A DNA stretch of 64,000 nucleotides. It comes from Scylla paramamosain (lineage: Eukaryota; Arthropoda; Malacostraca; Decapoda; Portunidae). The notes beneath the pieces were generated by a model. It had not been told where the DNA came from. It saw nothing but the letters and a program-made list of their open reading frames with translations, and did not search any database. The position numbers and the translations under genes were made by a program. Position 1 is the first letter of the stretch. The number at the start of each line of letters is the position of its first letter. The stretch lies in the NCBI RefSeq assembly GCF_035594125.1, contig NC_087157.1, positions 1,375,001 to 1,439,000 on the forward strand. Direction: 5' to 3'. Below, one piece after another: positions 2,882-44,876 of the stretch.

Positions 2882-2914
2882 GGGGGGAGTAGTGGGGCTT
2901 GAGGGGGTTGGGGG
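2882..2914 (+). promoter_or_regulatory. G-quadruplex motif in the 5' leader, with a competing hairpin
   Basis: Four G-runs of at least four bases (2882-2887, 2894-2897, 2903-2907, 2910-2914) are separated by loops of 6, 5 and 2 bases. This is a strong sequence match to the G4 pattern on the presumed sense strand, 80 nt before the start codon. The GGGGCTT at 2894-2900 is also complementary to AAGCCCC at 2933-2939, so a stem could compete with the quadruplex. The motif is visible; a regulatory effect is inferred. Confidence 0.55.
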
Positions 2915-2993
2915 TGGCGGGAGTCCTGAAGAAGCCCCCTGAAGCCCCCAGCATCATCGAGGACATCAGCGTTACTACTCGTCTGGACGCAAG

Positions 2994-3064
2994 ATGGCCG
3001 CCGTGGCTGGTATCTATGGCCTTGGTGACGAGTCTGGACGAAGATACGTGCCAAGCAACTTGTC
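2994..3064 (+). CDS. First coding exon of an unrecognised protein (partial)
   Basis: ATG at 2994 in a good initiation context (A at -3, G at +4) opens 23 codons plus two bases up to TC|GTAAGT at 3065. The peptide starts MAAVAGIYGL and ends RRYVPSNL plus a split Ser codon, giving a phase-2 donor. An in-frame TGA at 2940-2942 precedes the ATG, so it is the first possible start in that frame. The CpG-rich leader, the start context, the compact non-repetitive codons and the full six-base GTAAGT all support a genuine first exon. The position -1 base is C, which is not ideal. I do not recognise the family from this N-terminus. No downstream coding exon is convincing in this window, so the protein would continue beyond it. 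The alternative is a chance ORF inside a CpG-rich leader. Confidence 0.55.
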
Positions 3065-3070
3065 GTAAGT

Positions 3071-4847
<1,777 letters not shown>

Positions 4848-17799: not shown

Positions 17800-17834
17800 A
17801 CTAGTATTTTTTTTTTTTTACATGTTAGGTAAGG
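17800..17834 (+). promoter_or_regulatory. Weak ratchet-like splice site (TAG joined to GTAAGG)
   Basis: A possible branch point (TTTAC, A at 17800) and a 13-base T tract precede ACATGTTAG, which ends at 17828 and joins GTAAGG directly at 17829. An acceptor fused to a donor is the layout of a recursive splicing site. It deviates from the consensus by TAG rather than CAG, G at donor +6, and a 7-base non-pyrimidine spacer. It may be chance. Confidence 0.25.
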
Positions 17835-19786: not shown

Positions 19787-21596
<1,810 letters not shown>

Positions 21597-22590: not shown

Positions 22591-22706
22591 TGTTGTTGCA
22601 TCAAAGCCAGAATATGAGGAGGGTGCGTGGGGAGAGTCTGTGCAATTCTGTTGTTGCATCAAAGCCAGGGTGTGAGGAGGGTGTGTGGGGAGAGGCTGTG
22701 CAATTC
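22591..22706. repeat. 58-bp tandem duplication, two copies
   Basis: Copies at 22591-22648 and 22649-22706 begin TGTTGTTGCATCAAAGCCAG and end CTGTGCAATTC. They are the same length and differ at about five positions, so the duplication is fairly recent. Confidence 0.93.
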
Positions 22707-41363: not shown

Positions 41364-41482
41364 AAGGAAGGCAATATAGTATGTAATTATTTTCGTGTTT
41401 TCACAGGTTTTCATTCCTTGATTTGCTTATTCTCTAAAACTACATCCAAGAATAAAATCGACTTGGTAAGATTATAGATACA

Positions 41483-41800
41483 GCAAAGACTACATGCTAA
41501 TATTACAGGTACAACCACTAGCAAAGACTACATGTTAATATTACAGGTACTGCCACTAGCAAAGACTACATGCTAATAGTACAGGTACAACCACTAGCAA
41601 AGACTACATGTTAATATTACGGGTACAGCCACTAGCAAAGACTACATGCTAATATTACAGGTACTGCCACTAGCAAAGACTACATGTTAATATTACAGGT
41701 ACAGCCACTAGCAAAGACTACATGCTAATATTACAGGTACAGCCACTAGCAAAGACTACATGCTAATATTACAGGTACTGCCACTAGCAAAGACTACATC
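41483..41800 (+). repeat. 38-bp minisatellite, about 8.4 copies
   Basis: Eight full 38-bp units start at 41483, 41521, 41559, 41597, 41635, 41673, 41711 and 41749, with a 14-bp partial ninth. Each begins GCAAAGACTACATG. Variation is concentrated at two places: position 15 (C or T, giving C,T,C,T,C,T,C,C) and the bases before CCACTA (AA, TG or AG). The near-alternation suggests past expansion of a 76-bp dimer. There are no unique spacers, so it is not CRISPR-like. Seven of the eight full units contain TAATATTAC. Confidence 0.97.
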
Positions 41801-44400: not shown

Positions 44401-44432
44401 CTAATAAATGTTTTCTTTCTTTGCAGGTAAGT
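44401..44432 (+). promoter_or_regulatory. Consensus recursive-splicing (ratchet) site
   Basis: A branch-point match CTAAT (A at 44404, 22 nt before the junction), a pyrimidine stretch and TTTCTTTGCAG end at 44426. GTAAGT follows with no intervening base (44427-44432). An acceptor directly joined to a full donor is the known layout of ratchet points that remove very long introns stepwise in Drosophila, and of RS-sites in vertebrates. Splicing exon 1 here would recreate a donor. A further donor-like GAG|GTAAAG at 44473/44474 would define a 47-nt RS-exon. If retained after exon 1 it reads TCG-TAA, an immediate stop, so it could act as a poison exon. The motif is seen; use is inferred. Confidence 0.55.
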
Positions 44433-44512
44433 ACCAGACGAGGGAGAACTGCGCCGGGAACACAAAGAGGGAGGTAAAGGAGGCACGATCATGGTGGTAT
44501 TGCTATTCGCGC

Positions 44513-44515
<3 letters not shown>

Positions 44516-44585
<70 letters not shown>
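44516..44585. repeat. (GA)35 microsatellite
   Basis: Perfect array, 43 bp after the RS-exon donor candidate. Confidence 0.98.

Positions 44586-44745: not shown

Positions 44746-44876
<131 letters not shown>

Follow-up and report, generated by a model that had tools for sequence, protein, structure and literature searches.

The window, that is, the whole stretch of 64,000 nt analysed here, contains the first coding exon of a Shaker (Kv1) gene and, far downstream on the same strand, a splice acceptor fused without a gap to a splice donor (Table 1; ^ marks an exon-intron or fused-site boundary). The peptide encoded by exon 1, MAAVAGIYGLGDESGRRYVPSNLS, resembles the N-terminal inactivation ball of Shaker and matches the ball peptide of ShB (PDB 2lny, E 0.011). 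The initial annotation had placed here an exon ending in TC, which a direct read of the sequence confirmed; GTAAGT follows from position 3065. For the comparison with known proteins, the best 120 of 2188 were taken; 116 of them have at least 8 residues before the pattern S(L/V)PKLS (the other 4, with fewer than 8, were dropped) and they gave 70 N-termini distinct in their first 30 residues. Eighteen of these 70 match the window at E <= 0.01, all 18 at position 2994, while the second-best place in the window reaches E 0.057. The closest is the N-terminus of Thrips palmi Shaker (17/20 residues identical to the exon 1 peptide, E 3e-8). All of the N-termini that match come from insects, as would suit an arthropod, the compared set being one of insect Shaker-type N-termini.

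In insect proteins, ball-type N-termini of this kind continue into the channel core. With the 120 full proteins (E <= 0.1, low-complexity filter on), exon 1 was the only match in the window, with no sign of a Shaker core exon; likewise, none of the 70 N-termini revealed another Shaker first exon outside exon 1 at E <= 0.01. As the window shows no core exon, everything on the + strand after exon 1, from 3065 up to 64000 or beyond, is probably intronic in this isoform. This intron, of more than 60.9 kb, would separate the Shaker ball exon from the shared channel exons, and the core exon is expected beyond 64000 on the same strand; thus, exon 1 is like the ShB ball exon in its peptide, but its join to the channel core would involve an exon outside the window. 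The ends of the N-termini appear to fit a core junction inside a serine codon (TC^N or AG^Y) in phase 2, although the serine of S(L/V)PKLS belongs to the selecting pattern and hence is no independent finding. A protein fusing the exact exon 1 to a Shaker core was not present among 35 proteins (of 70 candidates, by listed identity), and neither of two further candidates, both read, joins the two; the displayed names of such candidates include no crustacean, and one is unnamed. The flanks of exon 1 (2894-3264) have 47% GC and 18 CpG. In the available part of a 2026 preprint, human recursive splicing is linked to first donors with CG-rich flanks (PMC13105047).

Table 1. Features of the Shaker exon and of the fused splice sites in the window (all coordinates refer to the window).
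Feature	Position	Strand	Basis or remark
First coding exon of Shaker (Kv1) gene: MAAVAGIYGLGDESGRRYVPSNL + TC, phase 2	2994-3064	+	homology
Exon 1 splice donor GTAAGT (GTC^GTAAGT)	3065-3070	+	
Branch-point-like CTAAT	44401-44405	+	its A ~22-23 nt before acceptor AG
Pyrimidine tract and CAG acceptor	44411-44426	+	tract = 44411-44422
Candidate ratchet-point donor GTAAGT fused to acceptor	44427-44432	+	
Candidate RS-exon	44427-44473	+	47 nt, 57% GC, 74% purine
RS-exon donor GAG^GTAAAG	44474-44479	+	
Second, weaker fused site: (TC)60 then CAG^GTGAGT	44749-44876	+	GT at 44871

At position 44427, which lies 41,362 nt from exon 1 and at least 19,574 nt from the 3' end of the intron (outside the window), the CAG ending at 44426 abuts GTAAGT, and this fused acceptor-donor can be read directly from the sequence. 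The closest AG upstream of the acceptor is 33 nt away. The stretch GAGGTAAAG carries the second donor, with its GT 47 nt past the fused site, so that CTAAT, the fused CAG^GTAAGT and the donor at +47 are all present as the initial annotation described them. The 100 nt upstream have 28% GC and the 47 nt downstream 57%, a step reached at 5 of 406 AGGT sites (44427 counted among them), and this composition looks exon-like, as would suit exon definition of a cryptic RS-exon. In flies, according to the available text of one study, RS-exons are '~50 nt' long, flanked by a downstream donor and generally out of frame, and exon definition of the cryptic RS-exon is required (PMC8605326); the short exon proposed here, of 47 nt and with GAG^GTAAAG behind it, agrees with this length.

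These features point to 44427 being, as we consider likely, a ratchet point of the fly type within the Shaker intron, with a cryptic RS-exon that would normally be skipped. Several observations count for this reading: (i) a strong acceptor is fused to a strong donor (AG^GT), both halves being near consensus; (ii) CTAAT stands at the proper distance; (iii) GC and purine content step up at the site; and (iv) the site lies on the sense strand of what would be a very long intron, the core being placed beyond the window. The idea of a ratchet point in a long first intron stands as the best reading, and it is strengthened because exon 1 is now identified as that of Shaker, while transcription across the intron and use of the site by the spliceosome are what we infer. 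Among the best 40 matches by E-value in the window (three queries), the site matched itself only, and neither an Rfam family at gathering score nor a tRNA was found. Scans of viral contigs for an exact pattern gave no match.

All measures of rarity were picked after the site was seen and therefore overstate its case, and the splice matrices (insect/metazoan and human) were not fitted to the source species. With the insect/metazoan matrix, 44427 has the highest score (24.6 bits) of the 408 AGGT sites counted on both strands, the next being 44871 on the + strand (22.2), 17829 on the + strand (19.3) and 47394 on the - strand (16.8); given independent acceptor and donor quality, 0.0012 sites as good are expected. 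With the human matrix, in the style of Shapiro and Senapathy, it reaches 97% and 95% of the maximum in two scores. At 80% or more of the log-score there are two sites on the + strand (44427 and 44871) and none on the - strand, and at 80% or more of the linear score there are five and two, respectively. On the two strands of the 64 kb, the exact pattern YYYYYYNCAGGTAAGT is present a single time, as against a mean of 0.03 in dinucleotide shuffles, whereas the looser YAGGTRAG is in mild excess only (15 observed against a mean of 8.9, with 5 of 100 shuffles getting as high). When 64-kb windows were simulated and both strands scored, no site of equal score appeared in 60 of order 2 or 60 of order 4; a larger simulation gave none in 600 order-2 windows and 5 in 600 order-4 windows, that is, ~0-0.008 per window, and CTAAY stands upstream in none of those five. 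In the window itself, 251 of 9521 AGs (2.6%) are preceded by CTAAY at a distance of 13-45 nt. A donor at least as good as that at 44474 occurs 30-70 nt downstream of 38 of 408 AGGT (44427 included), and 20-100 nt downstream of 73 of 408; since such donors are this frequent, the second donor alone is weak evidence.

The five simulated sites, together with the 3 of 100 shuffles that contain the exact pattern, bear on another explanation: that 44427 is splice-like sequence arisen by chance in a long, microsatellite-rich intron, which the spliceosome ignores or uses as rare noise. This would also suit the opposite-strand rate in large invertebrate introns, which for ratchet-like sites is 0-0.12 per 100 kb and so 0-0.07 in 61 kb (PMC2773006, available text). 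We regard chance as unlikely, although it is the strongest competitor of the ratchet point, given that both halves of the site are near-optimal and on the right strand, that CTAAT is in place and that the composition changes in an exon-like manner.

The second fused site, at 44871, suggests that repeats can create such sites; it counts for chance and against the ratchet point. Judged by its make-up alone, it is probably a microsatellite by-product, which could also be used. Many arrays of the (GA)n/(TC)n type, in both polarities, occur across the window. One of them, the (GA)34 array at 44517-44585, pairs fully (69/69) with 44748-44816 of the (TC)60 array, and a very long hairpin is predicted, which sits just downstream of the RS-exon. 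This hairpin might have been thought to bury the pyrimidine tract of 44871, an idea that was rejected, as it takes 44748-44816 instead. Among the 49 nucleotides of the TC array closest to 44871, none is paired in the centroid and 28 are paired in the minimum-energy fold, so the nucleotides adjoining that acceptor would stay largely available; the odds for 44427 are left unchanged by this fold. The site at 17829 was also tried as a ratchet point and rejected, since a simulated window contains on average ~0.18 (order 2) to 0.45 (order 4) sites of equal or better score.

Intronic ratchet points, or zero-nucleotide recursive sites, are known from Ubx, kuz, Bx and Ten-m of Drosophila. Like 44427, they combine a fused AG^GTAAGT, a pyrimidine tract, a sense-strand position in a very long first intron and a short RS-exon that is out of frame and followed by a donor of its own. 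They differ in that the first segment here measures 41 kb, where flies typically have 9-15 kb, which counts against a ratchet point, and in that 44427 is known from sequence alone. High-confidence recursive sites are present in 63% of fly introns longer than 40 kb, first introns being enriched (PMC6110457, available text). In introns longer than 50 kb, the enrichment of ratchet-like sites over the complementary strand is, in the accessible portion of a survey, 4.0-fold in the bee, 8.0 in the beetle, 21.7 in the fly, 8.2 in the sea urchin and '>>10' in the mosquito, as against 0.9-1.5 in vertebrates (PMC2773006). In the five invertebrates, the same portion gives 0.48-2.2 such sites per 100 kb on the sense strand; on the opposite strand, it gives 0 in the mosquito and 0.066-0.122 in the other four. 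Scaled to 61 kb, this amounts to ~0.3-1.3 sense sites against 0-0.07 by chance, a rough comparison because the scoring used here follows the style of that survey with a different matrix (PMC2773006).

Vertebrate RS-sites resemble 44427 in having an RS-exon after the fused site, a stop on inclusion, a neuronal-type gene and a long first intron, but ratchet-like sites are little enriched in vertebrates (PMC2773006, same portion). Recursive sites in the mouse brain, which are of the type proposed for 44427, are rare (20), enriched for AGGTAAGT, found in introns longer than 51 kb and prone to fall in first introns (75%) of brain-expressed genes (PMC8797253, available text). In a source that resembles insects in this respect the odds are thus for a real site, and in one that resembles vertebrates they are not; because it is uncertain which applies, the ratchet point is held to be likely and nothing stronger.

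Among the PMC papers covered here, none describes a crustacean ratchet point by title or abstract start, and the words 'crustacea' and 'arthropod' are absent from the available text of a 2026 review (PMC13149111). In the PMC collection covered, no paper has 'recursively spliced' together with 'Shaker', and the available text of PMC6110457 has 0 occurrences of Shaker. Position 44427 is a probable further case of a known type of ratchet site, in a newly named gene. Ratchet sites are well shown in flies, sequence-inferred in other insects and the sea urchin, and little enriched in vertebrates. A functional one in a further arthropod whose introns are very long would make it easier to estimate the age of the mechanism and to ask whether it scales with intron length. 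Moreover, the host gene encodes a textbook neuronal channel; the reading predicts a single junction, 3064-44427.

If the intron is removed in this way, two steps would be needed. In the first one, U2AF and U2 would recognise CTAAT, the pyrimidine tract and CAG, aided by exon definition over the purine-rich RS-exon with U1 at its GTAAAG; exon 1 would then join 44427, and the first 41,362 nt would be released as a lariat. In the second one, the join would recreate GTC^GTAAGT, whose six intronic bases are identical to those of exon 1's own donor, and this regenerated donor would be spliced onward, either to a ratchet point further downstream or to the core exon. Such a removal would leave no trace in the mRNA. 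If the donor at 44474 wins instead, the mRNA would read ...NLS-stop and would probably be destroyed.

The outcome would depend on two donors, compared here with crude scores that ignore position dependence. In place, the donor at 44427 scores 12.9 and the RS-exon donor 6.9, whereas once joined to exon 1 the former falls to 5.2; the predicted U1 pairing is then -7.1 kcal/mol, against -7.8 for the RS-exon donor. As the regenerated donor is not clearly stronger, which is a further difference from Drosophila, clean skipping is not predicted, and since the two are nearly equal some RS-exon inclusion is possible. Intronic ratchet donors are generally the stronger donors in insects and mammals (PMC8605326, available text). 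A donor that equals or beats the regenerated one in the joined context, and the purine-rich stretch before it, would also be expected if 44427-44473 were an ordinary cassette (poison) exon, acting by inclusion and nonsense-mediated decay, in which the GTAAGT start is incidental or secondarily used. Joined to exon 1, the RS-exon reads TCG-TAA, that is, ...SNLS-stop directly after exon 1, and this premature stop on inclusion would suit such an exon without being diagnostic: it is automatic given phase 2 and GTAA. We hold the poison exon to be improbable, since one would not expect a cassette exon to start exactly with a near-perfect GTAAGT.

The 'truncation switch' that the initial annotation saw in inclusion found no support as a designed feature. 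Any phase-2 intron starting with GTAA reads NNG-TAA, and the stop is no argument for a switch because plain retention of intron 1 gives an identical one. A different argument for regulation starts from the near-balance of the regenerated and RS-exon donors: skipping would give fast-inactivating Shaker and inclusion a free 24-residue ball, or none after decay, which would tune the neuronal A-current. We consider this very improbable; if true, a ratchet point would set the isoform output of an ion channel, possibly in a non-insect arthropod.

The ATG-started frame of 36 codons at 44408-44518 spans the fused site and the RS-exon. One frame has an ATG at 44408 and stays open through 44473, as would be seen if the region belonged to a further alternative first exon of Shaker or to some unrelated transcript. 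This frame exits in phase 0, whereas exon 1 and the presumed core junction are in phase 2, and none of the 70 insect Shaker-type N-termini matches it at E <= 0.01, which makes either of these readings hardly credible.

In the predicted fold of the naked RNA, the pyrimidine tract of 44427 is mostly paired with the RS-exon (mean unpaired chance 0.13); such pairing could hinder recognition and speaks mildly against the ratchet point. A special fold at the site was considered but dropped, because shuffled sequences fold equally well in 70 of 200 cases (z -0.28). Finally, some other elements of the intron can be mentioned. An AATAAA polyadenylation-signal hexamer at 44403-44408 overlaps the branch-point-like CTAAT, and premature cleavage there, if it occurs, would compete with ratcheting. 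A 38-bp minisatellite of 8.4 copies (41482-41799) lies 2.6-2.9 kb upstream of 44427; 7 of 8 units have ACAG^GTAC behind C/TTAAT, in which the AG^GT is acceptor/donor-like and C/TTAAT resembles a branch point, but a pyrimidine tract is lacking. Furthermore, the intron contains short tandem duplications at 20373-20502 (64 bp x2.1) and 22591-22706 (58 bp x2.0).
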